A stretch of 33,095 nucleotides of DNA. Origin: a virus. The stretch lies in the IMG/VR virus record IMGVR_UViG_3300031857_000778, positions 1 through 33,095 of that record, one strand, 5' to 3'. The position numbers and the translations under genes were made by a program. This document shows positions 3,015-26,055 of this stretch, in pieces (position 1 is the stretch's first letter; each line of letters begins with the position of its first letter). The notes under the pieces are model-generated. The model saw nothing but the letters and a program-made list of their open reading frames with translations. It made no database searches and was not told where the DNA came from.

Positions 3015-3036
3015 GAAGTAACTGCGAGGCGAAGAG

Positions 3037-3068
3037 GCTCACCCCGAAAGGGGTGGGCTTCTTTTTTT
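3037..3068 (+). terminator. Rho-independent terminator after lysis genes
   Basis: A nine-pair stem GCTCACCCC/GGGGTGGGC (one G-T pair) closes a GAAA tetraloop and is followed by TTC and seven T. It lies 22 bases after the holin stop codon. No T-run exists on the opposite strand, so it acts on plus-strand transcription. Confidence 0.93.
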
Positions 3069-3076
3069 GTCCCGTT

Positions 3077-3310
3077 TTATTCTGCATCAGCAGGACAAGG
3101 AACAGTCACTAGGTTCCCACAATTTACACAGGTTCCATCAAGGAACCACCAGACCAGTTCATTGTCCTCAAAGGCGCACATCACATTAAAGACCTGCGAC
3201 CCACACGTACACACGTGGATAGGTCCTAAACCCCGCAGATCGGCCCCGTAAGGCTCAGGAAGGGTATGTTTAGACCAGAGTTTAGGCAGGGTGAGTAGAC
3301 GGAACCACAT
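3077..3310 (-). CDS. Zinc-ribbon protein of unknown function
   Basis: A lone minus-strand gene between two plus-strand operons. From the ATG at 3310 the product has about 77 residues. Its C-terminal half has HVCTCGS and then GTCVNCGN, a CxC/CxxC arrangement that suggests one bound zinc. It also holds a conserved-looking patch (GADLRGLGPIHV) and a Trp-rich strand (ELVWWFLDG). An in-frame GTG at 3358 would add 16 residues, but that stretch contains a hairpin (GGAGC/GCTCC at 3324-3336) and looks like leader. No good Shine-Dalgarno is seen for either start. Small zinc ribbons of this kind are common in phages; the function is unknown. Confidence 0.72.
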   Translation of the reverse strand: MWFRLLTLPKLWSKHTLPEPYGADLRGLGPIHVCTCGSQVFNVMCAFEDNELVWWFLDGTCVNCGNLVTVPCPADAE

Positions 3311-3375
3311 AGACGGACGGCTAGGAGCTTCGCTCCCGATTACAGTAATTCGCCTCACGGCTCATATGGTAGCCA

Positions 3376-3429
3376 TAATGGGTGTCGCTAATGCGACGAC
3401 ACGCCGTTAGGTGTAGCCTAGCCCAATGA
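3376..3429 (+). promoter_or_regulatory. Structured leader before the early plus-strand operon
   Basis: The only gap before the 3426 gene contains a hairpin GTCGC-TAAT-GCGAC (3384-3397), then GGTGTAGCCTA (3410-3420) and GCCCAATGA, whose ATG starts the next gene. The same order of elements appears in the leader of the terminase operon (16819-16870). TGGG at 3379-3382 can pair with CCCA at 3422-3425 just before the start codon. A promoter must lie nearby but no clear -35/-10 pair is seen. Confidence 0.45.
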
Positions 3430-3983
3430 CCACAATCGTTGGAGTAGAAGGAATTGACTACGCTGTTCTAGTAGCTGATAGTCAGATCACCGAAGATAAC
3501 CTCATCACTATTGCTACTTCCACGCCAAAGATTGTTGAGGTGGGTAAGTATCTCATTGGAGTCTCAGGGGACACGCGACCAGGAGACATCCTTGCCTACA
3601 ACTGGAAGCCACCTGCCTATCGAGGTGAGAACCCAGCGCAATTTATGGGACGCAAGATTATCCCAAGTATTATCACAGCATTTACCGACAACAACTACGA
3701 CTACAACAAGGTGGACAAAGATGACGGCTTCGATTATCTCATTGCTTTTAACGGCAATATCTTTCGCATTGCTTGTGATCTCTCTTTTTTCCAAGCAAAT
3801 CACGGAGCGTATGGCATTGGTTCTGGTGGTCAGCTTGCTCTCGGCTACCTGTATTCAGTTATCAAACCTGATGTTGACCTAGCCTATGCAAAGAGACACG
3901 CCCGTAAAGCTGTTGAGATAGCTTCGGTCCTTGACTCTAATACCAACAAGCCTTTACAGTTGGTAGTACAGGAAAGGATGTAA
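3426..3983 (+). CDS. Proteasome beta/HslV-like Ntn-hydrolase
   Basis: The 185-residue protein begins MTTIVGV. After Met removal Thr becomes residue 1, the catalytic nucleophile position of proteasome beta subunits and HslV. Asp falls exactly at position 17 (ADSQIT) and Lys at 34 (TPKI), matching catalytic D17 and K33 with one extra residue, and GIGSGGQLALGYLY matches the later GSGG segment. Length fits the catalytic core without a propeptide. No Clp/HslU/Mpa-like ATPase is seen in the window. If active it would be a barrel-forming peptidase, or it could mix with or interfere with the host proteasome; that is inference. It is the first gene of the operon; the Shine-Dalgarno is poor, but the start is fixed by the Thr. 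An Ntn fold used for another amidohydrolase reaction is the alternative. Confidence 0.82.
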   Translation: MTTIVGVEGIDYAVLVADSQITEDNLITIATSTPKIVEVGKYLIGVSGDTRPGDILAYNWKPPAYRGENPAQFMGRKIIPSIITAFTDNNYDYNKVDKDDGFDYLIAFNGNIFRIACDLSFFQANHGAYGIGSGGQLALGYLYSVIKPDVDLAYAKRHARKAVEIASVLDSNTNKPLQLVVQERM

Positions 3984-3985
3984 CT

Positions 3986-4138
3986 ATGGAGTTTAATACA
4001 TACGATTATGTAGAGCCAGAGTTCAAAGGTGTTATTGCAACAGGTGAATACGCTGCACACTACTGGTTTGAGCAAGGTTGGAAAGCCTGTAGACTTGCAT
4101 TCTTGTTGCACAAACAAGCAGAAGAAGCTGGTGTATGA
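3986..4138 (+). CDS. Small protein of unknown function
   Basis: A 50-codon frame starts two bases after the proteasome-like gene and ends in an ATGA overlap with the PP-loop gene. The product begins MEFNTYDYVEPEFKG and is rich in aromatic residues, with a predicted C-terminal helix (ACRLAFLLHKQAEEAG). No family is recognised. The tight packing on both sides is the main support. Confidence 0.65.
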   Translation: MEFNTYDYVEPEFKGVIATGEYAAHYWFEQGWKACRLAFLLHKQAEEAGV

Positions 4139-4974
4139 AACACGTAGTAATGTTTTCAGGTGGCATCGGCTCTTGGGCTGCAGCAAAGATGGTTGCAGCC
4201 AAGCACGGCACTGAGGATCTTTACTTAGTTTTTACTGATGTTAAAGGTAATGCTGAGTCTTCACATATAGGAGAAGATGAAGATACTTATAGGTTCCTAG
4301 ACGATGCAGTAAAGAATATCGGTGGGGCTTACATATACATAAATGAAGGCAAGGATATCTGGGAGGTATTTAAGGATAAAAAATTCCTTGGAAACTCACG
4401 ATTAGCTCACTGTTCTTTTGAGTTAAAACAAAAGCCAGCAAGAAAATGGCTTAATGAAAACTGCGATCCAAACGAAACGATTGTGTATGTTGGTATTGAC
4501 TGGACAGAAACACATCGTTTACCAGCCATAGTTAAGAACTACAAACCATATGTAGCTGTCGCTCCGTTGGCTGAACCTTTCTTTCATAAAGAAACCAAGA
4601 TGTATTACGACAAGCACGAACTTATCGAATGGGCTGAGTCAGAGGGTTTGAAAACCCCACGTCTTTACAGCCTTGGCTTTAGTCACAACAACTGTGGAGG
4701 TGGTTGTGTCAGAGCTGGACAAGGACAGTTTAAGAAACTACTAGAAATTATGCCTGAACGTTTTGCTATGTGGGAAGCAAAGGAACAGGAAGTTATTAAA
4801 CATATTGGCAAGGATGTATCTATACTTACAGATATGAAAGATGGCGTTAAAAGACCATTGCCACTGATAGAATTAAGACGTAGAGTAGAAGACCAACCCC
4901 AGTTAGTTGATGAATCAGATATCGGTGGATGTGGTTGCTTCTTTGAGGATGATGAAAGGGAAACGAATGACTGA
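4135..4974 (+). CDS. PP-loop ATPase, PAPS-reductase/DndC-like family
   Basis: The 279-residue product opens with SGGIGS (residues 8-13), the PP-loop that binds ATP in adenylating enzymes of the PAPS reductase/N-type ATPase superfamily. A later AHCSFELKQKP resembles the Cys-x-x-x-Leu-Lys segment of PAPS reductase relatives. Further Cys clusters (HNNCGGGCVRAG, and GGCGCFF near the end) could hold an iron-sulfur cluster or carry sulfur. Phages often encode such proteins; roles proposed include sulfur assimilation, DNA or tRNA thiolation, and nucleotide modification, and the sequence does not decide among them. It overlaps the upstream gene by 4 bases and the downstream gene by 8. Confidence 0.85.
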   Translation: MKHVVMFSGGIGSWAAAKMVAAKHGTEDLYLVFTDVKGNAESSHIGEDEDTYRFLDDAVKNIGGAYIYINEGKDIWEVFKDKKFLGNSRLAHCSFELKQKPARKWLNENCDPNETIVYVGIDWTETHRLPAIVKNYKPYVAVAPLAEPFFHKETKMYYDKHELIEWAESEGLKTPRLYSLGFSHNNCGGGCVRAGQGQFKKLLEIMPERFAMWEAKEQEVIKHIGKDVSILTDMKDGVKRPLPLIELRRRVEDQPQLVDESDIGGCGCFFEDDERETND

Positions 4975-6298: not shown

Positions 6299-6568
6299 AT
6301 GCGGGAACCGCACGAGTTTGAGGTTCCTTTATGTGCTCAAGTAGGTGGCGATCTATTCTTTCCTGACCAGGAAAACGAAGGCAAGTTAGTTCGCATCAAT
6401 ATCGCAGCAGCAAAATCAATCTGTCGTAGCTGTCAACACATCACTGAGTGTGCAGAGTGGGGTATCCGCAAGGAACAACACGGCATCTGGGGAGGACTGA
6501 CAGGTAACGAACGACGCAAGATTCGCAAACAACGAAACATAATCTTAGAACAGGATAAGAGTGCTTAA
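6299..6568 (+). CDS. whiB: WhiB-family transcriptional regulator
   Basis: The 89-residue product has the four Cys of a WhiB 4Fe-4S cluster (C12, C42, C45, C51, with CRSCQHITEC), then the G[VI]WGG turn (HGIWGGLTGNERR) and a basic DNA-binding tail (RRKIRKQR). WhiB proteins bind the host sigma factor and reprogram transcription; the family is limited to Actinobacteria and their phages, so this gene is the best host marker in the window. It overlaps the next gene by 8 bases. Phage WhiB proteins can repress host whiB genes; whether this one does is unknown. Confidence 0.93.
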   Translation: MREPHEFEVPLCAQVGGDLFFPDQENEGKLVRINIAAAKSICRSCQHITECAEWGIRKEQHGIWGGLTGNERRKIRKQRNIILEQDKSA

Positions 6569-7400
6569 ACTTTCCCGCGCTTGGAGTGGAGTGACTACCA
6601 AAGCCACGCCATTACCTGACGTGTGGAAAAGTTTAGTCAAGCAATCTATTAAGTTTCGTCGTGGTCAAGTATGTATGGTAGCTGCAGCACCTAACGCTGG
6701 TAAGTCAATGTTCGCATTGATCTATGCCATCAAAGCACAGGTGCCAACGCTGTTCTTCTCCGCCGATACAGACACAGCGACAGTAATGATTCGCGCTGCT
6801 GCACACCTATCGGGCCACAGTCAGTTATCTGTGGAACAGAACATAGAAAAGAGAGCTGATTATTATTCAGCACACTTGGCTAACACATCACATATTCAAT
6901 GGGTCTTTGACTCCAGTCCGTCTCTTGATGATATTGAGATGGAGATAAAGGCATACTTTGAATTGTATGGGGTAGCACCTCAGTTGATTATCATAGATAA
7001 CCTAATGAATGTATCTGCTGAGACAGACAATGAGTGGGCAGGGCTACGTGCAATTATGATGGAGTTGCACGATATGGCACGTAAGACAGAGGCTTGCGTC
7101 TTAGTACTCCATCACGTATCAGAACAATCAGAGTATGGTTCTCCTATGATGCCACCACCTAGACGAGCTATCCACGGAAAGGTAAGTCAATTACCAGCGT
7201 TGATACTCACACTAGGTTATGATCCAACACAGGGTCTATTGCGTATCGCATCAGTTAAGAACCGATTTGGTCCACACTTTGCTGATGCTTCTCAATGGGC
7301 ATCACTGTTTGTAAACTTTGGTGCTTGTCAAATAGGAGATGATGATGCACAAGGTAGAGCATACCTTCGTGCCAATGGAGAGAGCAGCATCTATGGCTAA
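6561..7400 (+). CDS. RecA/DnaB-like replicative ATPase
   Basis: The start is GTG 6561, overlapping whiB by 8 bases. The 279-residue product has Walker A AAPNAGKS (residues 42-49), an FFSADT strand, Walker B QLIIIDNL (about 141-148) and a sensor-like CVLVLHHVSEQ, the order found in DnaB C-terminal and RadA-type P-loop domains. The DnaB N-terminal domain is absent, so it is either a minimal replicative helicase or a recombination ATPase. The adjacent resolvase and primase genes support a role at the replication fork. Confidence 0.85.
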   Translation: MLKLSRAWSGVTTKATPLPDVWKSLVKQSIKFRRGQVCMVAAAPNAGKSMFALIYAIKAQVPTLFFSADTDTATVMIRAAAHLSGHSQLSVEQNIEKRADYYSAHLANTSHIQWVFDSSPSLDDIEMEIKAYFELYGVAPQLIIIDNLMNVSAETDNEWAGLRAIMMELHDMARKTEACVLVLHHVSEQSEYGSPMMPPPRRAIHGKVSQLPALILTLGYDPTQGLLRIASVKNRFGPHFADASQWASLFVNFGACQIGDDDAQGRAYLRANGESSIYG

Positions 7401-10572: not shown

Positions 10573-10989
10573 TCAGAAACCTTCAGCCACATCTACTATG
10601 CCTTGCACGATCCACTCTACCACAGGTACTGCAACTGCATTACCTATCTGGCGATAGCGCGTTGAGTCAGCCGCACCTTCAGTCCAGTTATCAGGAAAGC
10701 CCTGCAATCTTTCGCACTCAATAGGTGTAAGCCTTCTTACTGGTGTCTGTTCATTGATAACATAAGGAACACGAGCACCACCTGTTCCCCAGTATGTAGC
10801 TACTGTCGGAGAATACTTCTCATACAGGCGAGTATCATCTACTCGCGTAGCCTCAAAGATCAAGACTGTTGCTCTCACTTCTGCGGTGTTATCAAAAGCG
10901 TTCAATGTAGGACACACTCCACCCTCAATCCAGGTTTCGTGATCCTCATTGTGTTGTGCTCTCCTGCTCTTGACGTACCACATTCTCAA
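10573..10989 (-). CDS. Cytosine-C5 DNA methyltransferase, C-terminal part
   Basis: This frame holds the end of a Dcm-type enzyme: VKSRRAQHNEDHETW and CPTLNAFD from the target-recognition region, then motif IX-like RLTPIECERLQGFPDNW and motif X-like YRQIGNAVAVPVV. The N-terminal catalytic part is the next gene upstream, in another frame. The first possible start is TTG 10989, overlapping the upstream TGA (TTGA); ATG 10983 is more usual. Neither half alone would methylate DNA; the halves must associate, be joined by a -1 frame change, or be a broken gene. Confidence 0.8.
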   Translation of the reverse strand: MRMWYVKSRRAQHNEDHETWIEGGVCPTLNAFDNTAEVRATVLIFEATRVDDTRLYEKYSPTVATYWGTGGARVPYVINEQTPVRRLTPIECERLQGFPDNWTEGAADSTRYRQIGNAVAVPVVEWIVQGIVDVAEGF

Positions 10990-11612
10990 ATGCTTTCTGT
11001 AATTGATCTGGTAACAGCTTGCCGTTCCTGTTGCTCCTGCGGAGTACTCCCTCTGCGGCCTTGACTGTTAAATAGTATTTCTGCTGGACTGGTTGAGTCT
11101 GAACCACGTCTGCCAACGATGAAGACACGCTTCCTTCGCTGGGGTACTCCAAAGTATTGAGCATCAAGCACACGCCACCCGAGAGAATACCCGAGGTCGG
11201 CCATCGTCCCGATGACGACTCCAAAATCTTTTCCATCGTTACTGGATAACAAACCAGGGACGTTTTCGATGATGAAGTATTCTGTTTGCGTTTCTTCCAC
11301 AAGTCTTGCAATCTCCCAGAATAACCCGCTTCGTGCGCCAGCAAGACCAGCACGTTTGCCAGCAACGCTGAGGTCTTGACAGGGAAATCCTCCTGTAATA
11401 ATTCCTTTGCTTGGTGTAAATCCTGCATTGATTAAGTCCTCACCCTTCACTTCTGTAACGTCAGTAAATTGCTTCGCATTGGGGAAGTGCTGAGCCAGCA
11501 CCTCGTTGCACTTCTTATCTATCTCTACGCTAGCTACAACCTTTACTCCTTGTCGCTGCATAGCAAGATCAAACCCACCCACTCCTGCAAAGAGTGAGAC
11601 ACCCGTCAGCAC
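10986..11612 (-). CDS. Cytosine-C5 DNA methyltransferase, N-terminal part
   Basis: Start GTG 11612, directly after the lysozyme-like gene stop. The 208-residue product has motif I SLFAGVGGFDLA (S-adenosylmethionine binding), motif IV GGFPCQDLS with catalytic C78, motif VI ENV (116-118) and motif VIII YFGVPQRRKRVFIV. It then stops in the target-recognition region, before motifs IX and X. The following frame supplies these. Phages use such enzymes to protect DNA from host restriction; no partner restriction gene is seen. Confidence 0.85.
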   Translation of the reverse strand: MLTGVSLFAGVGGFDLAMQRQGVKVVASVEIDKKCNEVLAQHFPNAKQFTDVTEVKGEDLINAGFTPSKGIITGGFPCQDLSVAGKRAGLAGARSGLFWEIARLVEETQTEYFIIENVPGLLSSNDGKDFGVVIGTMADLGYSLGWRVLDAQYFGVPQRRKRVFIVGRRGSDSTSPAEILFNSQGRRGSTPQEQQERQAVTRSITESI

Positions 11613-18755: not shown

Positions 18756-20513
18756 TTGTTATCAACTAAAGAGGTCGCAGCGAAGGTAGCCCGTCTACAG
18801 ACCCGCTATGCAGCCCGTGACCAGAGAATGCGTGACGTGCTCTCTGTGCGTCAGGGTGACATCTCCAAGGTATACCCAGCAATGTTTTCAGAGGAATATC
18901 CAAAGCCTCTCGTAGCTAACTTCGTAGATGTAGCAGCACGTGACTTAGCAGAGGTAATGTCTCCACTGCCATCCTTTAACTGCGCTGCTACCAATATGGT
19001 TTCTGACTCTCAGCGTAAAGCTGCAGATACTCGTACTCGTATCGCTAACTACTACGTAGCATCCTCTGAACTACAGATCCAGATGTACACAGGTGCTGAC
19101 TGGTTTAACACCTATGGTATGTTGCCAGCGATAATTGAGATGGACTATGAAACCAATAATCCGAGAATACGTCTGCTTAATCCTTTTGGTACTTATCCTG
19201 AAATTGATAGATTTGGTCGTACCCTCTCCATCACCCAAGTCCTAGCCACCGATGCTGAGACTTTGGCTATGCAGTACCCAGAGTTCTATGACCAGATTAT
19301 GCCACGCAATGTGTATTCACCAGGATCACCTTATGTATCTTTGGTTCGCTACCACGACAAAGACCAAGATTTAATCTTTATCCCAGAGCGCAAGAATCTA
19401 GTTCTAGCAAACATTCCTAACCCAGTAGGCAAGTGCCTAGCAGGTGTTGCTATGCGTTCATCTATTGATGGCGAAGCACGTGGACAGTTTGATGATGTTC
19501 TATCAGTTCAACTTGCTCGTGCTCGCTTTGCAGTATTGCAGATCCAAGCAGCAGAAAAATCTATCCAAGCACCTATTGCTATCCCACAGGATGTGCAAGA
19601 GTTGGCATTGGGACCTGATGCAATTATGCGTTCTGCTAATCCTCAAGGTATCCGACGTGTTCCACTAGAACTTCCTAACGGAGTCTTTACTGAGTCTGGT
19701 GTTCTAGAACGTGAACTACGTACAGGTGCTCGTTACCCAGAGACTCGCTCAGGTAACATTGACGCATCTATTGTTACAGGCCGTGGTGTGCAAGCACTAC
19801 AAGCAGGATTTGATACACAAATCAAGGCAGCACAAGCACAGTTTGCTCGCTTGTTCACAGATCTTGTATCTATGTGTTTTGAAGTAGACGAGAAAGTCTT
19901 TGGTTCTATGACCAAGGAAATCAAGGGCGTGGATGACGGTACTCCATTCAATATGAAGTACGTGCCATCACGACAAATTGCAGGCAATTATGGCGTAGAT
20001 GTTCGTTACGGCATTATGTCTGGTATGGACCCAAACCGCGCCATCATTGCTTTACTACAAATGCGTTCAGACAAACTCGTATCTCGTGACTATGTACGTC
20101 GTGAGATTCCTATGGAGCTTAATGTGACGCAGGAGGAACAACGTGTTGATATCGAAGAAATGCGCGATTCTTTGCGCGTGGCTGTTGCTCAGTATGCTCA
20201 GGCCATTCCAGCGCTGGCAGCGCAAGGTCAAGACCCTAGCGAGATCATCTCGCGTATTGCAGAAGTTATCCAAGGCCGTCAAAAGGGTCTTCAATTAGAG
20301 AACGTAATCGGCAAAGCATTTGCACCTAAAGAACAACCAGCAGCTCCAGAAATGGCGATGATGCCAGGAGCACCAGGAACTCCAGCAGCAGGTGCGGCCC
20401 CCGTACCTGCCTCGCAGCCAACTCCAGAACAAGGCGGAGCGGCCCCTGCTGCTGGTCCAGAACAACGTCCAGATATAGCAACCCTGCTAGCTTCTATAAG
20501 CGGCGCAGCATAA
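18756..20513 (+). CDS. Portal protein
   Basis: TTG start 18756 with AAGGAG upstream. The 585-residue product is in the portal position and has portal-like features: long helical N-terminus, LLNPFGTYPEID and GRGVQALQAGFDTQIKAAQA segments near the stem/crown helices, then FTDLVSMCFEVDEKVF. The last 75 residues are Pro/Ala/Gln-rich and flexible. It forms the dodecameric ring for DNA entry and joins head to tail. The family is inferred from position and overall pattern, not a short diagnostic motif. Confidence 0.88.
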   Translation: MLSTKEVAAKVARLQTRYAARDQRMRDVLSVRQGDISKVYPAMFSEEYPKPLVANFVDVAARDLAEVMSPLPSFNCAATNMVSDSQRKAADTRTRIANYYVASSELQIQMYTGADWFNTYGMLPAIIEMDYETNNPRIRLLNPFGTYPEIDRFGRTLSITQVLATDAETLAMQYPEFYDQIMPRNVYSPGSPYVSLVRYHDKDQDLIFIPERKNLVLANIPNPVGKCLAGVAMRSSIDGEARGQFDDVLSVQLARARFAVLQIQAAEKSIQAPIAIPQDVQELALGPDAIMRSANPQGIRRVPLELPNGVFTESGVLERELRTGARYPETRSGNIDASIVTGRGVQALQAGFDTQIKAAQAQFARLFTDLVSMCFEVDEKVFGSMTKEIKGVDDGTPFNMKYVPSRQIAGNYGVDVRYGIMSGMDPNRAIIALLQMRSDKLVSRDYVRREIPMELNVTQEEQRVDIEEMRDSLRVAVAQYAQAIPALAAQGQDPSEIISRIAEVIQGRQKGLQLENVIGKAFAPKEQPAAPEMAMMPGAPGTPAAGAAPVPASQPTPEQGGAAPAAGPEQRPDIATLLASISGAA

Positions 20514-20928: not shown

Positions 20929-21280
20929 CCCATTACAAATAGGCGGTCCAGGAAAATTCTCCGTACGTGAAGACCTACCACCGTCACAAAATTACGGTGA
21001 TCGTAAGGCAATGGCAGAACAAATCGCAGGTGCTCCAACTGCTAACAACCCAGATGCGCGTCCAGTTCCTGCTAGTGATATTAAAGAAGCAGTTAAGCCA
21101 ACTCCAATAACACAAATGTTTGCACCAACAGAACGCCCTGACGAAGACATTATGACTATCGCTGGCCCACCAAAGCCAGCCGAAGGTAAGTTGTCAGACA
21201 CACTTGCTGCATTACTTCCATTCGATACAACTGGAGAAATTTCTGTTCTCTATCAGATGGCTTTATCTAGAGGTCAGTAG
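20918..21280 (+). CDS. Pro-rich virion-operon protein
   Basis: The 120-residue product is rich in Pro, Ala and charged residues (VPASDIKEAVKPTPI, AGPPKPAEGKLSD) with one C-terminal helix (EISVLYQMALSRG). It is likely largely disordered, like scaffold or linker proteins. AGGAGG is close to the ATG. The stop overlaps the next GTG start by one base. Confidence 0.75.
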   Translation: MVDSPLQIGGPGKFSVREDLPPSQNYGDRKAMAEQIAGAPTANNPDARPVPASDIKEAVKPTPITQMFAPTERPDEDIMTIAGPPKPAEGKLSDTLAALLPFDTTGEISVLYQMALSRGQ

Positions 21281-24200
21281 TGGGATCAACTTCCAATAAC
21301 ATTAAGGCTATCTCTGCTCAAGCAATGCTAACTCCAGCACAACAGCAGCAGATCAATGGCTATATCAAGGCTGTAGATTCGCACCAGAAGTTATCATCTC
21401 TTCCATCAGACGTTGCCAAGTTAGAGTACGCAAAACTAACTCCAGAGCAACAGAAGTCCTTGAAGGATAACTTTGGTAATGTTGAGCAAAAGCGTGGGTG
21501 GTTAGGAACAGCGCTTCACTACACAGTAGATCCATTGATTACCGTTGTGTCTGCTCCTGTTAAATTGGCTTTCAAAGGTGTACAAGAACTTTCAGATTTA
21601 AGCACACGTGCTTATCGTACCGCTGCTATCGCACTTGACCAGAATGTAGACATCGGTAAAGCGTGGACAACAGCAAACGATAAAGGTGACAAGGTATTTA
21701 GCCCATCACGTATTGCTGCAGCAACAAAAATTTTTGGCTCAGGCTATATGTCTGTTGCACAAAAAGTTGCAGAAGGTATGAGTCTTGACCAGATTGTTGC
21801 AACTGGTACTGAAGAAGAAAAGCAAATTGCAGCAGGTGCTGCACAAAAGAAAGATCCACTCTTTCAAGATGCACTAGATGCAGCTAACGCTGCTAAGTAT
21901 TCTCCAGGTCGAGCACTCGCTAACGCATTACTTCCTCAAAAGTGGGAAGGTTCAGGCGCAGCCTACAGAACTATCTCAGGTCTAGGTGATGCAGCATTTC
22001 GTATCTTTGCAGATCCAACACTTGCATTAGGTAAGGCTAAGAAAGCATACGATGTTTCTAAGTATGCACTTGATAACATTGTTGGCAACGCTGGTAATGT
22101 CGAAAAGGCTTTCCAAGTAGCAAGCGTACAGCGATTTGATACAGACTTTGTTGGAGCATTGAAGAAATATTCAGTAGCTCGCAAAGCAATCAAAGAAGGT
22201 ACAGCAGATCCACAGGCTTTAGTTCAGGCATCTATTGAACTCAAGCGTATTGCTCCAGAGTTTGGTGACGATGTTATCGAGTCTATGCTTAAAGAAGGCG
22301 TAGTCGAAGCTGGCACAATTAAGAACTTCCTTGCTAATAGTGAAGATGCACTACGTACTCTTAAAGGTCAAGCAGGTCGTCAGGTTCAGTTGCTTCCACG
22401 TATGGACTTAGCGCGTAGAACTCGTATTGCAGCATTGACTACTGGTAATAAGGTTCTTCGTTTTGACCAAGCAGGCAAGCGCATTAGCCGTGAAGTATTC
22501 ACTGACCAGACCAGTATTGGTGGCATTGAAGCCCAGCTAATGGCTAAGACTAAGTTTATTGATAACCGAACAGGTGAAGCAGCAACTGCTAATACGCCAA
22601 AAGAATTTTTAGAACAGGTCGAAACCAACGTCATTGGTGAGATTGAGCGTAAGACTGCAAAGTTACGTGCAGACGGTGCATTCCGTATGCCATTGGATTA
22701 TGTCCAAGATCGCATTGACCGCTTTGCATCTAAGTTTGCAAGGGTTCCATTTTTCCGTGATAACTTCTTTGACCCTAACGCAGTAGATTCTGCTGAGAAG
22801 GTCTACCAGTTAGCACGTCTTGCTAATACTCGTTACAACTCACGCCTATTTGCAGAAGCATTCAAGGCTGGAGACGAAGCACAGAAGCGTCAGATTATGA
22901 TGGGTGTCTTCAACACAGTAGCTGAGATCCGTGGACTTAATAAAGTTCCAGGTGGTAAGAATATCCTAGACGAATTGGCTAACTCATCACGTGAGCAACT
23001 TTTTGCTCCACGAATCCTAGTACGTGATGCTAAAGGTAAGCCAGTTCTTAACGACGATGGTACTTACCGTTACTTTGAACCATCCAACTTTAACGATCAA
23101 CAGTTTGCTATCTTTGATTTCCAATTAGCAGGAGGTATGACTGTTCCTAAGATTCAAGATCTTGATGGAATAGTTGACCGCTTCCAAATTGGAAGTAAGA
23201 TTATGAACTGGTCACACTCTCAATGGGCTGAGAATCTAACATCTGCTTGGTCATTCTTGACTCTTGCTGGTCCTCGCTTTGCTGTGCGTAACTCTATTGA
23301 AGATCTAATGGTTCACCTTGCAGTAGGCGATGGCGCTTGGGGTGTTGTGGCAGGTAAGCGTCTATCTACTAAGATACGTCTTGGTCAAGGTGGCGAGACT
23401 CTAGGTGTTATTAACAAACTTATCAAGCGCTCAGACCGTGAACTTTACGCTGGCAAGATTGCTGAAGCAAAGACAGTTGAAGATGCTCGTAAGGTTATGG
23501 CAGATGCTGTTATGACAGACAAGTATCTTGGTAAACTAGATCCACAAGCACGTGAGATTATTGCTGAGATGGCAGAGTTTGGCGCTATTGACGATCTACT
23601 CGCAGGCGTTGCAGAAGGTGGCAAGAAGGGTATTACTGGTGCTGACCACTGGACAGATGCGCTTCGTACCGTAGATAAGTTTGGCACATCTCGTGAATAC
23701 AAAATTGATGGCGTTACTTACGCCAAGCAAAGCGGTGGAAACTACCGTGAGTATTCTCCTATTACAGCAGAGGGAAAGATTGCTTGGATAACAAGCATTG
23801 CTGCAATCGGCAACGATCCTCTAGGTTCTATCGCGCTTCGTTATATGTCAGATAGCCCAGAATCTAAAGAATTTGCTATTAGACAAATCATAAAGTTTAT
23901 TGATTCTCCAGAGTATGCAGCGCAAAAGGCTCGTTTCCAGCTATACCGTCCTGGCAATAATGCTGATGTACGAGTACACGCAGAAAATGTATACGCTGCA
24001 ACTCGTAACCTATTTGTTAACAGCCAAGATAAAGTAAACCAAGCATTGCTTGCAAAGGTTACGATTCGTACACCAGAAGGTGGCATTAAGATCAATACTC
24101 GTGACTTAGGTATTGATGACTTGCCAGCATTGGCAGAAGATGCACCACAGTTTATCTCTGGTCCGAGCATTATGCCTATTGCAGAAGGTAATCCTGCTGG

Positions 24201-26055
24201 CAAGATCGTAGGAAAACACTGGAACTGGGTTGGCGAGATGAATGCTCGCTGGTCACGTGAACCAATGGTGCTATCTGCTGCTGTAGATATGCGTAAGCGT
24301 TGGAAAGCAGGCGGTTTAGAAGAGCGTTATATCAAGATGATGACAGATCCTATCCGCAATAACGCCAAATTAAACGCTGAAGAGAAAGCTGCTTTAATTG
24401 CCGATGCTGAACGTAAGGCTAAAGTTAAGATTATTGAGATGACACAGGACCTTGCTAAAGAGCGAGTCCTTGCATACGTAGATAATCCAGAGGTTCGTAC
24501 CCAGTTAGCCTTCACAATGCGTAACTTTGCTCGCTACTATCGTGCAACTGAAGACTTTTATCGCCGTGCATTGCGTGGTGTTCGCTATAACCCAGAGTCA
24601 ATCGCACGTTTATCACTGACTTATGAAGGTGTATCGCACTCTGGCTTCATCCAAAAGGACGATCAGGGCGAGGCTTACTTCATCTATCCAGGTATGCAGC
24701 CAGTTTACGCAGCAATGTCTAAACTTGCTACAGTATTTGGCATCAAGGGCGCATTCGTTGCACCTATGCCAGTAGAGTTCGGTGCAAAGCTCAATATGAT
24801 TTCACCATCTATGAATCCAGACTCGTTGTTCCCAACGTTCTCTGGTCCATTGGCAGCATTGCCAGTCAAGATGATGTACGAGTTGGTTCCATCACTGAAA
24901 GAATCAGAGAAGTATCTCTTTGGTGAGTACGGTGAAGACCAACCAATCATTAACGCTATCCTTCCAGCCCACATTAACCGTGCATTGGGTGCATTAAACA
25001 AGGATGAGCGTGATTCACAGTACGCATCAGCTTTCCGTAAGGCAGTTACCTACCTAGAGGCTACTGGTAACGGATTAAAGATTACAAAAGATGCCAATGG
25101 TATCGAAGTTCCACCGTCACCAGGTGAACTAGAGGAATATCAAGATAAACTGAAGGCAACAACCCAGACAGTCTTGGGTATGCGCTTCTTTAGTGCCTTG
25201 ATATTGCCAGCATCACCATCAGTTCAACTCAAGTCTGAAATGGCTGGATGGGTTCGTGACAACGAACGTACAAGTTTTAAGCAGGTATTCTCTAACCTAG
25301 TTACTGAGTACAACGGTGATTACACCCGCGCTACTGAGGAATGGATCAAACTATTCCCAAAGCAAATGCCATACACAGTATCTGAATCTAAGAAGAATAC
25401 CGTTGCTGTTATCAAGTATGGTGAGGCGGCAGGTAACTGGGTAGATAACAACACTGAGTTGCTCAAGAAGTATCCAGAAGCTGCAGCATTTTTGATTCCA
25501 AACATTGGTAAGTTCAGTTATGACGCTTACAAGACAATGATGAACGAAGGCTTCCTTGATAAGAAGCAGGTCGGTGACTTCTTACGTGAGACACAGATTG
25601 CTACTGACAAACAGTATTACTTCCAACAACGCAAAGAATACCTCAACTTATTGGAAACAACTGCTTCAGTAGACCAGAAGCGTCTGATTAACAAGCAATG
25701 GGATTCTTGGTCAGGTCAGTTTATGTCAGTTCGTCCACAGTTGCAGACAGAGTTTGCATCAGGTGGAGCATCAGATGTTCGTCGTGAGATTGCTATTAAC
25801 GACCTACGTAATATGTTGACTAACGAAAAGAACCTTCCTAAGACCAAGACAGTAGCCGTTCTTCGTCAAATGCTTCAGGCTTATGACAGTTTTAGTACTC
25901 AGTTCTCATCTATCACAGATAGAACAGATGCAGCACAGGATCGTAAAGATGCTTTGCAAGCAGGTGCTAAGGCTCAACTACAAGAACTAGCCAACAGCAA
26001 TCCAAATACTAAATCAGCTTATGATGTTTTGTTTGCATCATTGATCGGAGACTAA
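21280..26055 (+). CDS. 1591-residue internal/ejection virion protein candidate
   Basis: GTG 21280 overlaps the previous stop. This is by far the largest protein in the window. It is mostly helical and rich in Ala, Lys and Gln, with a hydrophobic patch near residues 85-105 (YTVDPLITVVSAPVKLAF) and long charged helices to the end. Located between portal and capsid genes, it resembles the large ejected or internal proteins of podophages rather than a tape measure, which normally follows the capsid and tail genes. No enzyme motif (lysozyme, protease) was seen. Virion role likely, precise role inferred. Confidence 0.8.
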   Translation: MGSTSNNIKAISAQAMLTPAQQQQINGYIKAVDSHQKLSSLPSDVAKLEYAKLTPEQQKSLKDNFGNVEQKRGWLGTALHYTVDPLITVVSAPVKLAFKGVQELSDLSTRAYRTAAIALDQNVDIGKAWTTANDKGDKVFSPSRIAAATKIFGSGYMSVAQKVAEGMSLDQIVATGTEEEKQIAAGAAQKKDPLFQDALDAANAAKYSPGRALANALLPQKWEGSGAAYRTISGLGDAAFRIFADPTLALGKAKKAYDVSKYALDNIVGNAGNVEKAFQVASVQRFDTDFVGALKKYSVARKAIKEGTADPQALVQASIELKRIAPEFGDDVIESMLKEGVVEAGTIKNFLANSEDALRTLKGQAGRQVQLLPRMDLARRTRIAALTTGNKVLRFDQAGKRISREVFTDQTSIGGIEAQLMAKTKFIDNRTGEAATANTPKEFLEQVETNVIGEIERKTAKLRADGAFRMPLDYVQDRIDRFASKFARVPFFRDNFFDPNAVDSAEKVYQLARLANTRYNSRLFAEAFKAGDEAQKRQIMMGVFNTVAEIRGLNKVPGGKNILDELANSSREQLFAPRILVRDAKGKPVLNDDGTYRYFEPSNFNDQQFAIFDFQLAGGMTVPKIQDLDGIVDRFQIGSKIMNWSHSQWAENLTSAWSFLTLAGPRFAVRNSIEDLMVHLAVGDGAWGVVAGKRLSTKIRLGQGGETLGVINKLIKRSDRELYAGKIAEAKTVEDARKVMADAVMTDKYLGKLDPQAREIIAEMAEFGAIDDLLAGVAEGGKKGITGADHWTDALRTVDKFGTSREYKIDGVTYAKQSGGNYREYSPITAEGKIAWITSIAAIGNDPLGSIALRYMSDSPESKEFAIRQIIKFIDSPEYAAQKARFQLYRPGNNADVRVHAENVYAATRNLFVNSQDKVNQALLAKVTIRTPEGGIKINTRDLGIDDLPALAEDAPQFISGPSIMPIAEGNPAGKIVGKHWNWVGEMNARWSREPMVLSAAVDMRKRWKAGGLEERYIKMMTDPIRNNAKLNAEEKAALIADAERKAKVKIIEMTQDLAKERVLAYVDNPEVRTQLAFTMRNFARYYRATEDFYRRALRGVRYNPESIARLSLTYEGVSHSGFIQKDDQGEAYFIYPGMQPVYAAMSKLATVFGIKGAFVAPMPVEFGAKLNMISPSMNPDSLFPTFSGPLAALPVKMMYELVPSLKESEKYLFGEYGEDQPIINAILPAHINRALGALNKDERDSQYASAFRKAVTYLEATGNGLKITKDANGIEVPPSPGELEEYQDKLKATTQTVLGMRFFSALILPASPSVQLKSEMAGWVRDNERTSFKQVFSNLVTEYNGDYTRATEEWIKLFPKQMPYTVSESKKNTVAVIKYGEAAGNWVDNNTELLKKYPEAAAFLIPNIGKFSYDAYKTMMNEGFLDKKQVGDFLRETQIATDKQYYFQQRKEYLNLLETTASVDQKRLINKQWDSWSGQFMSVRPQLQTEFASGGASDVRREIAINDLRNMLTNEKNLPKTKTVAVLRQMLQAYDSFSTQFSSITDRTDAAQDRKDALQAGAKAQLQELANSNPNTKSAYDVLFASLIGD

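Follow-up and report, generated by a model that had tools for sequence, protein, structure and literature searches.

Relatives of the proteasome occur in phage genomes, where they have already been catalogued as PPH and AAH. A description was given by Fuchs et al. (PMC8665760), and single-genome reports also mention them (PMC8953757, PMC9127768, PMC7289586); these papers report no tested function. The 2021 study of Fuchs, Alva and Lupas (PMC8665760) gives PPH as a protein of ~140 amino acids (aa) with H2 missing, describes BPH as unregulated by an unfoldase, and states that no AAA+ partner accompanies any novel homologue and that no Actinobacteria-specific phage encoding AAH was found. Here we analysed a proteasome-like gene in the IMG/VR virus record IMGVR_UViG_3300031857_000778, taken at its full length of 33,095 bases (G+C 45.8%) and referred to below as the window. 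The record is probably a fragment of a phage genome, because related complete phages measure 39 kilobases (kb). The encoded protein is best classified among the group I proteasome-like proteins, in an actinophage lineage next to a clade from alpha-proteobacteria and Streptomyces that possibly corresponds to AAH. The gene and its key residues are as follows.

3426..3983, + strand: group I proteasome-like (N-terminal nucleophile, Ntn, hydrolase) protein, 185 aa, identified by PF00227, phrog_1040, AlphaFold2, Foldseek and VIA-align
Residues in this protein: Thr2 = Thr1, Asp18 = Asp17, Lys35 = Lys33 equivalent, Gly48 = Gly47, GSGG at 132-135

Fold, active site and known relatives

The open reading frame (ORF) runs from an ATG to a stop codon, and its product starts with MTTIVGVEG (Met-Thr-Thr-Ile). 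Upon numbering after Met removal, the translation confirmed the initial annotation of a Met-Thr-Thr start, Asp at 17, Lys at 34 and a GSGG segment, and further revealed GVSG ending at 47; the Lys at 34 is the Lys33 equivalent, offset by one inserted residue. Of the 102 ORFs in the window with 60 aa or more, only this one has Thr or Ser after Met and Asp at mature position 17. Pfam PF00227 (Proteasome) matched it with 43.3 bits (E 4e-11), exceeding the curated cut-off of 22.4 bits, and also matched 32/33 aligned family members, while PHROG 1040 ('peptidase HslV family') was hit with E 2.8e-26. A profile of the phage family searched against solved chains retrieved BPH first (E 5e-9) and then HslV. 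The ratio of nonsynonymous to synonymous substitution rates (dN/dS) of the gene is ~0.10-0.12 among window-type relatives, which evidences strong purifying selection. A chance or misread ORF is ruled out by these profiles and dN/dS together with the fold and conservation described next.

The AlphaFold2 model of the window protein, built from an alignment of 33 phage homologues, adopts a proteasome beta fold with a mean predicted local distance difference test (pLDDT) score of 89.5. It comprises the beta-sandwich Ntn core S1-S11 and flanking helices at 50-58, 70-88, 135-145 and 152-169, the shortened H1 being distinguished from H2 by position only. Foldseek placed BPH at the top (template modelling score, TM, 0.78), followed by HslV and 20S beta subunits, and returned no non-Ntn fold. 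VIA-align gave Z 19-21 over ~170 residues to 20S beta subunits, with model residue 2 (Thr2) falling on beta-subunit residue 1, the catalytic Thr1. Across 195 distinct homologues, the Thr nucleophile is kept in 192 (the others being two Ser-type BPH-like rows and one mis-called start), Asp17 in all 195, Lys33 in 194 (all but an HslV row that is misaligned at this point) and Gly47 in 183. Profile, fold and conservation therefore back the earlier assignment to beta-type, proteasome/HslV-like Ntn hydrolases whose Thr/Asp/Lys centre is intact. A further feature of the phage family is the motif R51...W60-x-P62-P63.

Comparison with the described systems sets this protein close to several of them and inside none. 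It resembles HslV (ClpQ) in fold, N-terminal Thr and the GSGG segment; HslV membership was rejected upon a TIGR03692 score of 20.4 bits versus a cut-off of 157.75 and the lack of an HslU-type unfoldase in 18 records, although a host HslU is possible. With PrcB, the actinobacterial 20S beta subunit, it shares the fold and the triad (Z ~20 against 20S beta subunits overall), but it differs in its MTT start without propeptide, in the lack of an alpha subunit and in its weak profile match, and was thus not assigned to PrcB; TIGR03690 (bacterial beta) is weakly matched by only 14/33 family members. BPH (PDB 5ovs, 5ovt, 5ovu), the best profile and Foldseek match, forms a double ring of heptamers with a long, acidic pore loop and likewise has four flanking helices, whereas identity is ~22-24% and the phage protein has R51, the W-x-PP motif and a shortened H1, this comparison concerning the subunit fold only. 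As in PPH and AAH, which are phage-borne and belong to group I, we found a compact beta fold in a small single domain with Thr1/Asp17/Lys33, no propeptide, a tailed-phage context and no AAA+ partner. PPH membership was nonetheless discarded, given the 185 aa of the window protein and its possession of both H1 and H2, as named by position. As to AAH, the window lineage falls outside a clade of Rhizobium, Sinorhizobium and Streptomyces homologues that may correspond to that family.

Partners were sought in two overlapping sets of 18 phage records, one (including the window) for AAA_2 and the other for ClpP, Pup and the number of PF00227 genes. No AAA_2 domain (PF07724; HslU/ClpX-type unfoldase) was found in the former, and neither ClpP nor Pup in the latter, in which each record has at most one PF00227 gene, indicating that these phages encode no alpha subunit. 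The initial remark that no partner ATPase is seen thus holds across the 18 phage records. A candidate unfoldase in E7-type phages (introduced below), matched by PF00004, proved to be a DnaB-like helicase. The S78 prohead protease was absent from the ~40 kb phages and found only in the 129-kb phage DSL-LC01.

Distribution and genomic positions

Phages of freshwater actinobacteria carry the gene widely, and in lake phages it is very frequent: IMG/VR holds at least 595 related loci, plus a second type and a few large-phage homologues. The records OX376640/OX376641 (LanE43-AprE7/F5) carry homologues 34-35% identical to the window protein. According to PMC10202952, phages E7 and F5 were isolated on 'Ca. 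Planktophila landstejnensis' LanE-43; its text mentions only genes that serve to degrade host proteins and leaves the proteasome-like gene unnamed. E7/F5 share with the window phage WhiB and homologous terL, portal and large virion-module protein, but their proteasome-like gene lies directly after the portal gene, has a shorter H4 and, in E7, a GTG start. WhiB was present in 18/18 phage records searched, which together with the homologues in two 'Ca. Planktophila' phages supports the suggestion in the initial annotation that the host is an actinobacterium.

Other phage homologues were found in phages of Microbacterium, Arthrobacter, Vibrio, Pseudoalteromonas, Psychrobacter, Klebsiella, Pantoea, Tunturiibacter and Moorella, and plasmid homologues in rhizobia, Streptomyces, Paraburkholderia and Bacillus. 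One of the rhizobial plasmid homologues (L189 from Sinorhizobium americanum, L187, L176 and L190) is flanked by nifQ and by a gene for iron-sulphur assembly, close to nifS. In the tree, homologues from plasmids and from proteobacterial phages cluster in a single clade (100/97-98) without actinophage sequences, and the Rhizobium, Sinorhizobium and Streptomyces homologues fall in this clade, apart from the window lineage. The actinophage sequences form a group of moderate support (83/94) in a tree whose deep branches are weak, and a freshwater-only grouping is neither favoured nor rejected (p-value of 0.43 in the approximately unbiased test, p-AU). Scanning IMG/VR with the Microbacterium phage homologue yielded no matches. 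A bacterial source of the gene was rejected, a contig scan of 84,980 species having returned only three distant BPH-like gammaproteobacterial matches.

The position of the gene differs between the two phage types. In all 81 Planktophila-phage-type loci retrieved through the proteasome-like protein itself, it lies directly after the portal gene and is followed by a 147 aa gene and the gene for a 1,764 aa protein. The E7 portal matches phrog_104 (1.5e-24), and window proteins are identical to their E7-type homologues at 45% (terL), 50% (portal), 39% (120 aa gene) and 27% (large protein); the post-portal region of the window nevertheless contains nothing proteasome-like. When loci were instead retrieved through the portal only, which does not select for the proteasome-like gene, it was found beside the portal in 63/76 E7-type loci versus 0/80 window-type loci. 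Whole records of at least 35 kb carry the gene in 6/6 window-type and 6/8 E7-type cases, the two E7-type records without it (37-40 kb, with homologous portals) lacking a proteasome-like gene anywhere. In ~10 E7-type loci extending past the portal, the next structural gene follows at once, leaving the slot with neither the gene nor a replacement. Elsewhere, homologues neighbour ThyX, PhoH and early genes. The two locations and the clean absences in some E7-type phages therefore mark it as an accessory gene that is mobile and well conserved.

New here are the accessory status of the gene, its two locations in the genome, its wide spread among freshwater actinophages and its occurrence in the two cultured phages of Planktophila. 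The cultured phages render a viral proteasome-like function testable in a real host. The 2021 statement on absent actinophage AAH is also qualified by these data: actinophages do carry group I homologues, of a lineage that is not clearly AAH.

Function and rival explanations

We consider it somewhat probable that the ORF product is a proteasome-like peptidase subunit of group I and of the active type, stand-alone and ATP-independent, that is used during infection. From the computed fold, intact Thr1-Asp17-Lys33 centre, purifying selection and lack of a phage alpha subunit or unfoldase, we infer its oligomer, activity, substrates and benefit. Met1 would be removed by the host methionine aminopeptidase, exposing Thr1, so that no propeptide cleavage would be needed. 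The subunits would then assemble into a homo-oligomeric chamber, by analogy with BPH and HslV, and this chamber would cleave unfolded or small proteins, either without ATP or with a host unfoldase. Such an accessory protease could contribute to infection by removing host factors or recycling amino acids. In window-type phages its gene would be read along with the replication/WhiB operon; in E7-type phages it follows the portal.

Several observations weigh against a stand-alone peptidase. Connectase, of the same family, is a ligase and not a protease (PMC8665760). The Asp166 equivalent varies across the 195 homologues (D 102, N 38, T 38, S 14), and H4 has 11 residues in the Planktophila-phage version versus 18 in the window protein; ring assembly and turnover may therefore differ from those of BPH and HslV. 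The post-portal position in E7-type phages is also compatible with a virion-related role. The Asp166 variation would be tolerable in this family, since this residue, which is linked to autolysis, should be dispensable in proteins without a propeptide. A narrower and more tentative version of the stand-alone peptidase is that actinophages infecting abundant lake bacteria evolved their own unfoldase-free subfamily with altered oligomer or specificity, acting on defined host or phage proteins, and that the gene moved between the early/replication and head operons with its function kept. The same variable Asp166 and the H4 shortened in one clade, along with the family motif, would also suit a non-proteolytic or highly specific Ntn enzyme, that is, a connectase-like ligase or a single-target processor rather than a general protease. 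We regard this as unlikely: the model lacks the helical insertion that covers the active site in connectase, and the compact predicted fold is close to that of BPH, a peptidase chamber.

A virion or prohead maturation protease trimming portal, scaffold, capsid or internal virion proteins has in its favour the location directly after the portal in all protein-retrieved and most portal-retrieved E7-type loci, a slot shared with many prohead proteases, and the absence of an S78 or ClpP-type protease from the ~40 kb phages. We judge this role improbable, however, because the gene is relocated and cleanly absent in some phages: in window-type phages it belongs to another operon outside the head module, despite homology in terL, portal and the large virion-module protein; the E7-type loci devoid of it show no substitute in the slot, and two whole records have no such gene; and homologues elsewhere have ThyX, PhoH and early genes as neighbours. 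Least probable of all is interference with the host Pup-proteasome, raised in the initial annotation as diverting or blocking protein turnover; such a protein could join or cap PrcB/PrcA or Mpa or act as a decoy for them. The actinobacterial host speaks for it, as does the Pup-proteasome locus, reported in all Actinobacteria with loss of the core subunits in some (PMC8223512). The sequence, however, sides with BPH/HslV and not with the bacterial beta subunit, the phages encode neither alpha subunit nor Pup, and the retained catalytic residues would be unneeded by a passive decoy. Some homologues are also carried by phages of hosts not known to have a Pup-proteasome (Vibrio, Pseudoalteromonas, Psychrobacter, Klebsiella). 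A literature search on Nanopelagicales proteasomes found nothing.

Surroundings of the gene in window-type phages

In window-type phages, the endolysin and holin genes are followed by a terminator-like hairpin, a divergent Cys-rich gene, the proteasome-like gene and then replication/WhiB genes, as listed here for the window.

3031..3064, + strand: terminator-like hairpin ending the upstream lysis (endolysin-holin) unit, 15 pairs then a T run, a consensus match only
3077..3358, - strand: divergent Cys-rich 93 aa gene, kept in 79/82 window-type loci
3343..3425, + strand: conserved leader with promoter-like CATAT(T/G)GTA and hairpin GTGTCGC...GCGACACGCCG, ~23-28 nt before the start codon
4967..5920, + strand: Cas4/RecB-like exonuclease (PF01930, 4e-8), the next conserved gene downstream, present in 79 window-type loci
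6299..6568, + strand: WhiB-like regulator (PF02467, 2.7e-15), an actinobacterial host marker
6561..7400, + strand: DnaB-like helicase ATPase (PF03796, 1e-11; phrog_243, 5e-72)
18756..20513, + strand: portal protein homologue, half of its residues shared with the E7 portal (50% identity)

Since the Cys-rich gene, which has neither a PHROG nor a Pfam match, runs divergently, 3426 marks the first gene of a rightward unit. The + strand continues with the Cas4-like exonuclease, a gp49-like gene, WhiB, the DnaB-like helicase, RusA, primase and a sigma-region-4 gene, in agreement with the earlier view of an operon opener followed on the same strand by WhiB and a sigma-like gene. The helicase is the only clear ATPase near the proteasome-like gene, and it is not an unfoldase. 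The leader occurs once in the window, and its hairpin pattern recurs in 77/81 relatives, the remaining four retaining the hairpin with a compensated pair (GTCGC/GCGAC to GTTGC/GCAAC). This leader may act as a structured 5' untranslated region or as a promoter carrying an operator.

The very large proteins encoded after the portal, of 1,591 aa in the window (21280-26055) and 1,764 aa in locus L185 (8228-13522), are ~27% identical over their C-terminal half, have no PHROG match and are probably internal virion proteins. On the window - strand, at 10573-11612, the motifs of a C5 DNA methyltransferase are split over the overlapping ORFs 10986-11612 and 10573-10989, which may reflect a frameshift, a split gene or an assembly error. 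A PAPS-reductase-like gene (4135-4974, phrog_424) separates the proteasome-like gene from the exonuclease in three of ~78 loci, including the window, and is a recent insert.
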